DNA of 64,000 nt, from positions 682,001 to 746,000 of the forward strand of contig JAHBTY010000001.1 in assembly GCA_019638355.1 (NCBI GenBank). Direction: 5' to 3'. The notes below the pieces were generated by a model. It had not been told where the DNA came from and did no database searches. It saw only the letters and a list, made by a program, of their open reading frames with translations. The stretch comes from Cyclobacteriaceae bacterium. GTDB taxonomy: Bacteria; Bacteroidota; Bacteroidia; Cytophagales; Cyclobacteriaceae. This document shows, piece after piece, positions 37,974-55,130 of this stretch (its first letter is position 1; every line of letters starts with the position of its first letter). A program made the translations under genes and the position numbers.

Positions 37974-38747
37974 TCAATGGGTTATTTTTTTAGTTCTGTT
38001 AAGACGAATATAGAAATAAAGTGCAACAGAAATTACGAGTATAGAAATGAACTGTGAGTTGGAAAGGATATTTTCAATTAAGAAACCGCGTTCAATATCG
38101 CCTCGGAACATTTCCAAAACACCTCTTCCTACTGCGTACACCATCAGGTAAATAAGAAAAAGTTGTCCGTCAAAATTTTTCTTCTTTTTAAGAATCAGAA
38201 GTGCAATCAAAATGGAAAAAATAAAAGTTGCCTCGAATAATTGAGTAGGATAAAGTGGCGTGTGCAACGGTTCGGCCTGGCAAACCGGGTTGCTGAACAC
38301 CACACTTAGAAATCCATTGGTTGGCAAACCGTAGCAACACCCGGCCATAAAACAACCAATGCGTCCGAAGCCATGCACCATGCAGGTTACTACAGCCATT
38401 ACATCCAGCATTCCCAGTACGGGTACCTTTATTTTTTTGAAGTACCACAGCATTACCGGAATAGTGGTAAGCAACGAGCCATAAAACACAAATCCACTTC
38501 CGGAAAAAAGTTTCTTGGGTTGGCTGAGGTACAGTGAGGGATCTTCGAAAATCATGAAGAACTTGCCGCCAACAACTCCAGCAAGTACTAATAGAATAAA
38601 AAGATTATTGCTTTGATCGAATGTAAGGCTGTATTGCTTTTTGCCTTGCCAGTACATGTAAATAAAACCCAGTAACGCGCCTATGGCAATGCAAAAGCCA
38701 TAGGTATAAATGGTAAACGACCCAATTTTAAAGAGAATGGGATGCAT
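37974..38747 (-). CDS. lgt: Phosphatidylglycerol:prolipoprotein diacylglyceryl transferase
   Basis: A 257-residue membrane enzyme with seven helices that attaches diacylglycerol to the lipobox cysteine of prolipoproteins. Family segments include GSFTIYTYGFCIAIGALLG, ARVHGFGRIGCF-like MVHGFGRIGCFMAGCCYG, where the Bacteroidota type has Cys in place of Asn, HTPLYPTQLFEA, and the C-terminal GRGVLEMFRGDIERG. The predicted lipoproteins in this window (for example at 15827 and 59808) are potential substrates. The Lgt-like domain at 53232-55130 shares the GR-xC-xxxGCC core. Confidence 0.95.
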   Translation of the reverse strand: MHPILFKIGSFTIYTYGFCIAIGALLGFIYMYWQGKKQYSLTFDQSNNLFILLVLAGVVGGKFFMIFEDPSLYLSQPKKLFSGSGFVFYGSLLTTIPVMLWYFKKIKVPVLGMLDVMAVVTCMVHGFGRIGCFMAGCCYGLPTNGFLSVVFSNPVCQAEPLHTPLYPTQLFEATFIFSILIALLILKKKKNFDGQLFLIYLMVYAVGRGVLEMFRGDIERGFLIENILSNSQFISILVISVALYFYIRLNRTKKITH

Positions 38748-52464: not shown

Positions 52465-53235
52465 TTGTCAGGGTTCCAGCTGGATAAGGCATACTTTGAT
52501 TTGGTTGACAACCAAGGCCGGGTGTTTATTGGGTATGAAGCCAGATTGCGCTGGAAGACTTTGATACTTGGTTACAGAGGCTTCATAATCTATCAACAGG
52601 CGCAGGGTGTAATTGAGAAAGGTGAGTTCCTGTTTAAGGAAGAACCAATTACACTTGAGGGCAAAGAAATTTTTTATCGGTTTGAGGATGTTAATGGTTG
52701 TTGGGTAAGAGAAGGTAAATCAGTTGAAGAAACTTTACTGGATAGTGCGCATGGTAAAATAACCTGGAGTTGTATCCAGCCACGATCTGAAGTTACACTC
52801 AATTACAATTCAGATTTGTTTTCTGGAAACGGTTACCTGGAAAAAATCTCCTTAATAATCCCACCTTGGAAATTGCCAATACAAGAATTGTACTGGGGCA
52901 GATTTCACTCTGCCCAAAATACCGTAGTTTGGATTCGGTGGGAGGGTTCGCAACCAAATGTTTGGATTTATCATAATAGCAAACGAGTTTCAGGGACTGT
53001 TACCGAAGAAAGGATTTCATTCGGGAATTTTATGCTTGACCTTAATAACTCCATGATTTTACGAAACGATTCGATTGGAAATACTTTGTTCCGTGGATTT
53101 CAGAATTTAATGAAACTATTTCCCGCAAGGATCTTAAATCTAAAAGAAACGAAGTGGGCCGGCCAAGGTGTACTTAAATCAGGCGATCGGGTTGAGATGG
53201 GTACTGTTATACACGAAAAAGTAGTATGGCCATGA
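52465..53235 (+). CDS. Unrecognised 256-aa protein coupled to the ICMT-PAP2-Lgt fusion
   Basis: No family is clear. The sequence is rich in beta-strands with repeated tryptophans, has no signal peptide or membrane segment, and contains IIPPWKLPIQELYWGRFHS, TVVWIRWEG and MGTVIHEKVVW. Some of these resemble the lipocalin-like AttH/CrtC hydratase fold, which acts on lipids or carotenoids, but that is weak. It begins at TTG 52465, six bases after def, with no earlier ATG; and its stop overlaps the start of the next gene by 4 bases, so both products are likely made together and may act on the same lipid. Confidence 0.45.
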   Translation: MSGFQLDKAYFDLVDNQGRVFIGYEARLRWKTLILGYRGFIIYQQAQGVIEKGEFLFKEEPITLEGKEIFYRFEDVNGCWVREGKSVEETLLDSAHGKITWSCIQPRSEVTLNYNSDLFSGNGYLEKISLIIPPWKLPIQELYWGRFHSAQNTVVWIRWEGSQPNVWIYHNSKRVSGTVTEERISFGNFMLDLNNSMILRNDSIGNTLFRGFQNLMKLFPARILNLKETKWAGQGVLKSGDRVEMGTVIHEKVVWP

Positions 53236-55130
53236 GTGAAAAACTTGGTAAACTATTGTATGCACTTCTGTTTTGTTTTCTTTTACCATTGATTCTTATT
53301 TTATGGGCAAAGTCTGTTCACCTTGAACTTCCTGTGTTTAAATCATTATTCTTAGGCTGGTTACTTACAATAGGAGGTTTGATTTTGGTTTTAGTGTCAA
53401 TGGCGCAACTTTGGTTTACTGGCAGAGGATTACCGATGAATGCTTATCCACCTAAATACCACGTTAGCAACGGACTTTACTTTCTATTTAAACACCCGAT
53501 TTATATAGGTTTTTGTTTTACTTGTTTTGGAGTTTCTATTCTGTGGTCATCAGCATCTGGTTTCTATTTGATTTCTCCTGTTGTGTCGTTGCTTTGCTTG
53601 GCTTTGGTACATGGTTACGAAAACCATTCTTTATTGCAGTTATTTCCAGAGCTTAAAAACCAACCTCAAGCTACTTCGGTTTCATTTTCAGATAAACTAA
53701 AAGTTATACTTCCAGTTTTTTTGTTTTGGTTATTTGGTTACGAAATCCTCATTCAATTGGGGTATGATCATCAGTTCGTCAACACTGTATCCTCTTTTGA
53801 AAAAGACTGGCGGGTAATTGAATGGGCAGAAATCCCGTATTCCTTTACTTACCTTATTGTATTTGTTGCACCATGGTTGGTTAAAGAGGTTCAACACCTG
53901 GATTATTTCAAAAAAACATCGTGGTGGATTGTTATCAGTGGACTATTGATACAAGGACTTTTGCCATTGTATGCTGCACCAAGAAATTTTGAACCTAAAA
54001 CTGCTTTAGGCGAGTTAATAATGTGGGAACGTGCTATGGATTCTCCGGCAGCTGCTTTTCCCTCATTTCATGTCTTGTGGATTCTTACAGTTTCGGTTTT
54101 GTTGTATAAAGTTTATACACGAGCTATCTGGTTATGGATTTTTGTTGGAGGACTTATGGTTTGGAGTTGTATGGCAACCGGTGCTCATTCAATGTTGGAT
54201 GTTTTGGGGGCAATACTTGTTTTCATTACCATTGCGGTCCGTTTTAAATTGTGGCTTAGGTTTCAAATTTTTTGTGAAGCGCTTGCAAACTCGTGGCAGA
54301 GTTGGCGGGTTGGTTCGGTTAGAATTATATCGCATGTTTGGTATTCTGGACTTGCAGGGTTGATAGGCACGCTTATGGTCGGCCAAATTTTGAATGAGCC
54401 CACACTCATCTTTATTGTTGTAGTTGGTGCGTGGTTGGGGGCAATGGTATGGGGGCAATGGGTTGAGGGATCATCCAGACTTCTAAGACCTTTTGGTTAC
54501 TTCGGAGCAATCTTTGGCGGAGTTTTTACTTCAATTTGTATTAGCTTTTTTACTGGAGTATCCACCTTAACGTTACTTGCTGCCTTTGCTCTAGCGGCTC
54601 CCTGGACACAGGCAATTGGTCGGCTACGTTGTTTGGTGCAGGGTTGCTGCCATGGAGCCACAACAAATGTAAAGCACTTAGGAATCTGCTATAATAATCC
54701 ACATTCACGTGTGGTGACTATCTCAAATCTAAAGGGTGTTCTGGTGCATAACACACAAGGCTATTCTATTCTTTTTAATTTATTGATTGGGCTTTTCCTT
54801 TTAAGGCTCTGGTATGGTGGAGCCACCAGTTCTGTTTTAGCTGGATTATATTTTATTCTGGCTGGTTGCACCCGGTTTGTGGAAGAAGCATATCGGGGCG
54901 AGATACAAACCAACAAGTTTGGTTCATTATCAATCTATCAATGGTTATCAATTCTAAATATCGTAACCGGAGCTTTCTTAACAACATTACCTGGAAGTCC
55001 ATTGATAATTAGTCTTTCTATTTCTTCGGAGCTTGTTGGGGTTAGCTTATTTGCGGGTCTTATTTGGGCCATAGGAATGAGTATAGATTTTCCGGATTCT
55101 AAACTTCCATTTTCCCGTTTAACAGGATAG
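53232..55130 (+). CDS. Three-domain membrane protein: ICMT-like + PAP2_3-like + Lgt-like
   Basis: A 632-residue polytopic protein with three recognisable parts (numbering from the ATG at 53226). Residues about 60-145 resemble isoprenylcysteine carboxyl methyltransferase/NnrU-type methyltransferases (YHVSNGLYFLFKHPIYIG, with the His-Pro pair). Residues about 200-335 resemble PAP2_3 phosphatase/transferases of the IPC-synthase kind, with FPSFH at 278-282 and HSMLD at 321-325. Residues about 370-590 resemble Lgt: GRLRCLVQGCCHG near 465-477 and CTRFVEEAYRGE with Arg550, Glu553, Arg557. The usual HGG of Lgt is not present. Start at ATG 53232 overlaps the previous stop in an ATGA. A lipid head-group exchange or modification enzyme is a reasonable guess. 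Confidence 0.72.
   Translation: MSEKLGKLLYALLFCFLLPLILILWAKSVHLELPVFKSLFLGWLLTIGGLILVLVSMAQLWFTGRGLPMNAYPPKYHVSNGLYFLFKHPIYIGFCFTCFGVSILWSSASGFYLISPVVSLLCLALVHGYENHSLLQLFPELKNQPQATSVSFSDKLKVILPVFLFWLFGYEILIQLGYDHQFVNTVSSFEKDWRVIEWAEIPYSFTYLIVFVAPWLVKEVQHLDYFKKTSWWIVISGLLIQGLLPLYAAPRNFEPKTALGELIMWERAMDSPAAAFPSFHVLWILTVSVLLYKVYTRAIWLWIFVGGLMVWSCMATGAHSMLDVLGAILVFITIAVRFKLWLRFQIFCEALANSWQSWRVGSVRIISHVWYSGLAGLIGTLMVGQILNEPTLIFIVVVGAWLGAMVWGQWVEGSSRLLRPFGYFGAIFGGVFTSICISFFTGVSTLTLLAAFALAAPWTQAIGRLRCLVQGCCHGATTNVKHLGICYNNPHSRVVTISNLKGVLVHNTQGYSILFNLLIGLFLLRLWYGGATSSVLAGLYFILAGCTRFVEEAYRGEIQTNKFGSLSIYQWLSILNIVTGAFLTTLPGSPLIISLSISSELVGVSLFAGLIWAIGMSIDFPDSKLPFSRLTG

Follow-up and report, generated by a model that had tools for sequence, protein, structure and literature searches.

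Two adjacent genes on the forward strand of a Cyclobacteriaceae genome (GenBank assembly GCA_019638355.1, contig JAHBTY010000001.1, positions 682,001 to 746,000; this whole stretch of 64,000 nucleotides, numbered from 1, is the window below) encode a small protein with a predicted AttH-type fold and a membrane protein in which known domains stand in a new arrangement: a PEMT-type methyltransferase, a PAP2_3 domain of the inositol phosphorylceramide (IPC) synthase type and an LGT domain related to the diacylglyceryl transferase Lgt. The pair is rare, scattered over several phyla and conserved. Judged from loop charges, the LGT domain is apparently inverted in the membrane, with its active side in the cytosol. 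We regard as evenly poised the proposal that the pair forms a lipid-assembly unit, with methylation and diacylglyceryl transfer at the cytosolic face, a substrate supplied by the partner, and finishing or export outside.

The partner open reading frame (ORF; 52465..53235, 256 aa) starts with TTG, and the longest ORF of the fusion (53226..55130, 634 aa) overlaps it by 10 bases. If the fusion starts instead at the ATG at 53232, the overlap is the 4-base ATGA that an earlier note on this DNA, made from the letters alone, had read there; the pairs at L024 and L029 likewise overlap by 4 bases. ORF calls and Pfam bear out the two genes and three fused domains of that note. In the window fusion, the PEMT profile (PF04191) matches residues 41–138 (53346..53639) at 26.9 bits, a narrow margin over the cut-off of 25; PAP2_3 (PF14378) matches residues 202–336 (53829..54233) at 40.8 bits against 27; and LGT (PF01790) matches residues 423–586 at 65.1 bits against 24.9, within a domain spanning residues ~359–600 (54300..55025). 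The Lgt equivalog cut-off of NCBIfam is not reached (60.7 against 334 bits). All the catalytic-type motifs that the note had named can be located: HP (residues 90–91), FPSFH (278–282; 54057..54071), H321 and D325 within TGAHSMLD (318–325; 54177..54200), GRLRC...GCCHG (465–477) and R550/E554/R557. The Pfam profile of ICMT, to which the note had likened the first domain, stays below its own cut-off (10.5 against 24 bits).

The architecture was followed through an alignment of 35 fusions, the window copy and 34 of the 42 loci from a survey described below; L038, L039, L043, L051, L053, L057, L058 and L059 were excluded for a long upstream extension, near-duplication, a frameshift, a wrong frame or truncation. 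Since the LGT and PEMT profiles each match all 35 fusions, the domain architecture stands above chance; ICMT matches 25 (E up to 0.01) and PAP2_3 matches 17. The methyltransferase shares the PEMT profile and the HP and Glu motifs (HPIYxG, GYE) with the PEMT/ICMT membrane methyltransferases (PF04191/PF04140) and differs from them by a loop with the motif GLPMNAYPP, invariant or nearly so across the alignment and, to our knowledge, not a feature of ordinary PEMT. In the AlphaFold2 model of the fusion (pLDDT 88.7) we read about 18 helices of membrane-spanning length: four in the methyltransferase, six in PAP2, seven in LGT, and an additional one that ends the protein at its C-terminal side (residues 601–619; 55026..55082), which, by model secondary structure and loop charges, would return the C-terminus to the cytosol. 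In this tally the helix at 339–354 is taken, with some uncertainty, as non-crossing. The earlier note had proposed comparing a model with Lgt, IPC synthase and ICMT; the sole Foldseek match at E ≤0.001 is E. coli Lgt (5azb, E 7.4e-5, TM-score 0.61 on the target), followed by a weak match to IPC synthase (9vj4, E 0.015, probability 1.00, TM-score 0.49 on the target), with Aur1 (9ivc, E 0.30) and SMSr (8ijq, E 0.35) ranking lower amid unrelated proteins.

The orientation of the LGT domain is suggested by charge. In E. coli Lgt the cytoplasmic face is positive and the periplasmic face negative, and in its usual orientation the enzyme obeys the positive-inside rule (PMC4728403). Lysines and arginines were counted in the loops of 35 fusion LGT domains aligned with 17 standalone Lgt-like proteins. 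The three canonically cytosolic loops carry 0–2 such residues in 35 of 35 fusions and 7–11 in 17 of 17 controls, and at each of five loop widths the two groups stay apart. In the three canonically periplasmic loops the fusions carry 6–12 and the controls 3–5, apart from one control, L068, which has a long insertion and stands at 16 (16–18 across the widths). With L068 set aside, the controls have 3–5 (5–7 at the widest setting) and the fusions 6–12 (8–14 at the widest; 6–11 and 7–13 at two widths), again with no overlap. The controls, 15 of the GCC type described below and two canonical, all come from the window's genus and are therefore not independent; 18 were tried, of which L020 gave no ORF under the script filter. 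Over the entire fusion the charges alternate broadly as in a protein with both termini inside, a pattern that is clear in the methyltransferase and in LGT and weak in PAP2. A distant protein, G800, in which LGT is joined to the methyltransferase with no PAP2 between, has the same bias (1 versus 12). If the apparent inversion is true, it would be an example from nature of an enzyme domain turned over in the membrane. The literature searched, for the most part without subscription papers and in part only, describes no inverted Lgt, nor the fusion or the gene set.

The catalytic-type residues of Lgt are partly conserved in the domain. Relative to E. coli Lgt, Y26 is replaced by His in 34 of the 35 fusions, H103 by Tyr in 30 and Phe in five, and N146 and E151 by Cys in all 35, giving the signature GRLRCLVQGCCHG at residues 465–477 (54618..54656). 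R143, G154, R239, E243 and R246 are retained as R466, G477, R550, E554 and R557 (the last three at 54873..54896), and these five, together with C469, C474, C475 and H476, are invariant in the 35 fusions. E. coli numbering was bridged through alignments, so that single positions, Y26 above all, may shift. The E. coli enzyme requires Y26, H103, R143, N146, G154 and R239 (PMC13251419), and the alteration of three of these (Y26, H103 and N146) is what speaks for a catalytically dead LGT domain that would bind lipid as a scaffold, or form a flippase-like channel, in the service of the methyltransferase and PAP2. We consider this unlikely: nine invariant residues in the LGT region are unlike decay, and in the large clade it is PAP2, and not LGT, that decays. 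One relative, G131, is an exception, since it keeps the PAP2 motifs and has no LGT signature by eye.

The missing His block had earlier been taken as a hint that the substrate is not a prolipoprotein. A non-lipoprotein role is indeed favoured, on other grounds: the loss of His103 alone does not exclude a prolipoprotein, because Lgts of Firmicutes and Actinobacteria carry Tyr or Trp there (PMC13251419). Two canonical Lgts (L068, L069) are encoded elsewhere in the window genome, and these, the Y26H, N146C and E151C changes and the inverted charges make it probable that the fusion is not a lipoprotein enzyme. A specialised enzyme for the lipidation of lipoproteins or proteins, in the normal Lgt orientation and with a dedicated substrate, would accord with an LGT score far above the Pfam cut-off and with known variation: distant Lgts have Cys at N146 and Cys or Asp at E151, and MSMEG_5408, a second Lgt with Y26H and N146C, is presumed to be of low activity (PMC13251419). 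We give this explanation little credence in view of the inverted charge pattern and the two canonical Lgts, and a soluble AttH-like partner fits it poorly. Compared with Lgt (PF01790; E. coli 5AZB), the fusion shares the profile, the fold and the Arg, Gly and Glu equivalents, and differs in the Y26, H103, N146 and E151 changes, its multi-domain context and its charges. Closer in signature are standalone GCC-type proteins, among them one encoded on the reverse strand of the window (37974..38747; GRIGCFMAGCCYG, Tyr in place of His103), which is the one standalone GCC-type protein of that genome, 14 further controls, and N146C variants like MSMEG_5408. They share GRxGC..xGCC(H/Y)G and Tyr or Phe for His103 with the fusion; the GCC-type controls are single-domain proteins that keep the Y26 column and the canonical charge pattern (9 versus 4 in the one at 37974..38747).

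The PAP2 domain is not universally intact. The catalytic residues read earlier in the window copy are there (H282, H321, D325), but across 46 aligned fusions all three of the His, His and Asp are kept in 25 and lost in 21. In a tree of these 46 (L057–L059, L065, L066 and L067 excluded, the partner sequence of L065 being that of L034 and the genome of L066 that of L082), 20 of the 21 losers group together in a single clade, and the remaining one is L051. An ATP-binding cassette (ABC) permease gene is found in 15 of the clade's 20 members, the exceptions being L043 (a short contig), L045, L050, L054 and L084, and none is within reach at L051; among the 25 keepers it occurs at L036 and L038, with L026 not judgeable. 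The link between PAP2 loss and ABC genes is suggestive. At the G800 locus (L080 1411–2922, also L090), where the methyltransferase–LGT protein has no PAP2 by Pfam, genes for an ABC ATPase and a permease adjoin it, together with an AttH-like protein, a P450 and a pyridoxal phosphate (PLP) decarboxylase.

This pattern bears on a sphingolipid-type explanation, in which the fusion would be a head-group transferase for ceramide or diacylglycerol, PAP2_3 would act like an IPC or sphingomyelin synthase, the partner would bind ceramide, as yeast Svf1 reportedly does, and LGT would be an accessory lipid-binding part. Many Bacteroidota make sphingolipids, and yeast Svf1 presumably has the same fold as the partner. 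The PAP2 part shares its motifs (in the window copy) with IPC synthase, SMSr and Aur1 and has some similarity to them in predicted fold, weak for IPC synthase (E 0.015) and weaker for the others, and a review of ceramide transport covers Svf1, lipocalin and ceramide (PMC10583516). The explanation is nevertheless distinctly unlikely. The fusion carries two domains beyond PAP2; 21 of the 46 aligned fusions no longer have the PAP2 residues, and Pfam finds no PAP2 domain in the G800 form, yet LGT and PEMT are matched in 35 of 35. Moreover, LGT does not look accessory, because its arginines are invariant.

The partner protein had been noted as belonging to no known family, and the window copy indeed has no Pfam or NCBIfam match; across 36 aligned members the best Pfam E-value is 0.032. 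Structural relatives do exist, and the idea of an orphan protein was accordingly dropped. The AlphaFold2 model (pLDDT 93.4) gives 26 Foldseek matches at E ≤0.001, of which 25 are AttH-type proteins and one is 5yvf; the best 25 range from E 6.7e-9 to 1.8e-6. They include AttH itself (2ICH, E 2.2e-8, TM-score 0.59 on the query), Fsa2, Phm7 and other pericyclases, CghA, kievitone hydratase and 25-phosphosteroid lyase. The partner is, as modelled, a lipocalin-like barrel of the AttH type. These enzymes share the predicted fold and differ in length (320–381 aa against 256), with TM-scores of only 0.46–0.59 on the query and no sequence or profile–profile match. We take the AttH-type enzymes and CrtC to form one superfamily. 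The partner family has an invariant Y124-x-E126 and W144, which bear a tentative resemblance to Tyr266/Asp268 (PMC4717167) and Trp283/285 (PMC12402844) of CrtC; in the lone hhalign match, GYxE falls instead on the C-terminus of the CrtC proteins. No signal peptide was noticed by eye. Two PDB sequence matches are at chance level, and profile matches to two collagen-adhesin chains (E 0.0062 and 0.016 over the whole sequence, 4.4 or worse for single stretches) are not believed.

The distribution of the pair was surveyed in a collection of one genome per species (84,980 species). A two-row profile yielded 42 loci, in Bacteroidetes and its groups, Acidobacteria, groups of Proteobacteria, Ignavibacteriae, Gemmatimonadetes and, possibly through contamination, one woesearchaeal bin; a scan of the same collection with the window fusion protein alone confirmed no locus. 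The earlier note had suggested looking for the two genes together in other genomes, and 37 of the 42 loci (37 of the 40 testable, the upstream DNA of L026 and L039 being too short for a call) have a partner gene upstream, detected with a profile first seeded by L021 and the window; it directly adjoins the fusion or is separated from it by ABC genes. Within phylum samples, 9 of 395 genomes match the fusion profile and 9 of 390 match the partner profile, and the nine genomes are identical. An order sample gave 5 of 390 for the fusion profile, among them G131, whose relative of the fusion (L083 5788–7254) is a 488-aa protein with the PAP2 motifs kept, a degenerate methyltransferase part and no LGT signature by eye. 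The full fusion is present in 2 of 58 genomes of the genus, the window's own included; in a third, G023, only the last ~64 codons are left (L003 1501–1695), which is a sign of past presence followed by decay. This relic is flanked by genes reading as a thiamine diphosphate-type enzyme and an LpxH-like protein. Not all loci are distinct: L021 and the locus of G049 are one and the same, L029 and L085 are apparently one contig, L042 hardly differs from L039, and L039, L048 and L055 come from one metagenome-assembled genome. Patchiness on this scale, with one relic in the genus, would suit a pair that has spread horizontally, matters little and has domains working separately on ordinary phospholipids, for example by phosphatidylethanolamine methylation and phosphatidic-acid phosphatase activity. 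The near-constant pairing, the conservation across phyla and motifs such as GLPMNAYPP that are invariant or nearly so make that very improbable.

For the lipid-assembly proposal, the following course can be envisaged. The partner would act in the cytosol, where it would make, bind or hand over a hydrophobic acceptor, and the cytosol-facing methyltransferase domain would methylate a lipid. The LGT domain, also facing the cytosol, would transfer diacylglyceryl from phosphatidylglycerol to the acceptor on the inner leaflet, using its retained arginines, with Cys, His and Tyr or Phe standing at the positions of canonical residues. The product would then be flipped across the membrane, and the periplasm-facing PAP2 domain would dephosphorylate it, or swap or cap its head group; in the PAP2-loss clade this step would be gone and an ABC exporter, usually co-encoded, would carry the product out. 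The acceptor may be isoprenoid-derived and amine-bearing, because squalene/phytoene-synthase-like, P450 and PLP decarboxylase genes are neighbours in some genomes; an isoprenoid as such is suggested solely by the partner fold and the synthase-like neighbour. The synthase-like gene occurs at 8 of the 42 loci and at L082 and L084. Against a cut-off of 26 bits, the SQS_PSY profile scores 32.4 at L047, 20.8 at L050 and 14.3 at L082, with no match at L084, and the Asp-rich motifs are conserved; the family is found in one of 390 phylum genomes, G483, a carrier of the system. A more specific form of the proposal, in which the inverted LGT joins diacylglyceryl to an isoprenoid-type acceptor made with the AttH-fold enzyme and an undescribed terpenoid–diacylglyceryl hybrid membrane lipid is finished by PAP2 or exported by an ABC transporter, is possible but less likely than not. 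The role in membrane lipids that the earlier note had put forward is supported as probable only. The literature drawn on here places Lgt chemistry at the periplasmic face and on lipoproteins; if the proposal is true, that chemistry would here work the other way round and serve to assemble small-molecule lipids in the cytosolic leaflet. A bacterial membrane lipid would then be made by a new route, and an AttH-fold family outside all Pfam models would gain a function.

Several observations weigh against this proposal. The topology is drawn from charge and helix counts, and its helix parity is ambiguous: if the helix at 339–354 crosses the membrane, LGT starts outside, in the canonical orientation. 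Two loops of the PAP2 region, 179–198 and 246–280, have 1.31 and 1.57 lysines and arginines, about equal to their inside neighbours, and positively charged residues close to the active side might also serve lipid binding. Sequence searches of the PDB found no solved relative of the fusion. No partner gene stands beside the fusion at L050, L054 and L056, nor does one adjoin the decayed G131 relative. Because the PAP2 losers are one clade plus L051, their link with ABC genes goes back mostly to a single event, and loci that break it occur among losers and keepers alike. Hints of isoprenoids are limited to 8 of the 42 loci and to G219 and G483, while no gene of this kind neighbours the window pair. 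Membership of the partner in CrtC (PF07143) by sequence was rejected, the profile matching 0 of 36 members and hhalign against nine PF07143 proteins giving a probability of 2.6%.

The window pair is located between def and an aminotransferase gene. The flanking genes are ordinary, and none of the extra operon partners of other loci adjoin it. The aminotransferase gene is present in 54 of 56 genomes of the genus. In 22 of the 29 non-window genus loci listed, def and aminotransferase matches lie within ~90 bases of each other, which constitutes an empty site; gaps of 460–740 bases separate them in six (L117, L119, L122, L137, L139 and L141), and at L114 no def was seen. In G049 the pair stands at another site, and close def–aminotransferase spacing is found there as well (L132). 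The empty sites in relatives and the different site in G049 fit gain of the pair by transfer, loss elsewhere being the alternative. Carriage by plasmids or phages was rejected, as no plasmid or phage record matches the pair. A defence role was also rejected: the two window proteins have no PADLOC match, and the L047 ABC ATPase matches many ATPase models. A joint partner–fusion gene at L038 was dropped, the 894-aa ORF and the partner being in different frames.

Neighbouring genes were searched with Pfam at selected loci. An ornithine/diaminopimelate/arginine-type decarboxylase gene is found at L042 and L090, a P450 gene at L080/L090, sulfotransferase genes at L040 and L049, and a radical SAM gene near five loci; at L028, L029 and L033 the neighbours are apparently unrelated (peptidase, BNR-repeat, helicase and channel genes). 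A single ORF in G835 (L091 122–1705), matched through its methyltransferase part only, has that domain followed by what looks by eye like a PlsC-type acyltransferase, and would be another lipid-type fusion from the same methyltransferase family. Named carriers of the pair are Chitinophaga hostae 2R12 (L024), with PAP2 intact, and Christiangramia gaetbulicola DSM 23082 (L047), in which PAP2 is lost and ABC and synthase-like genes are present.

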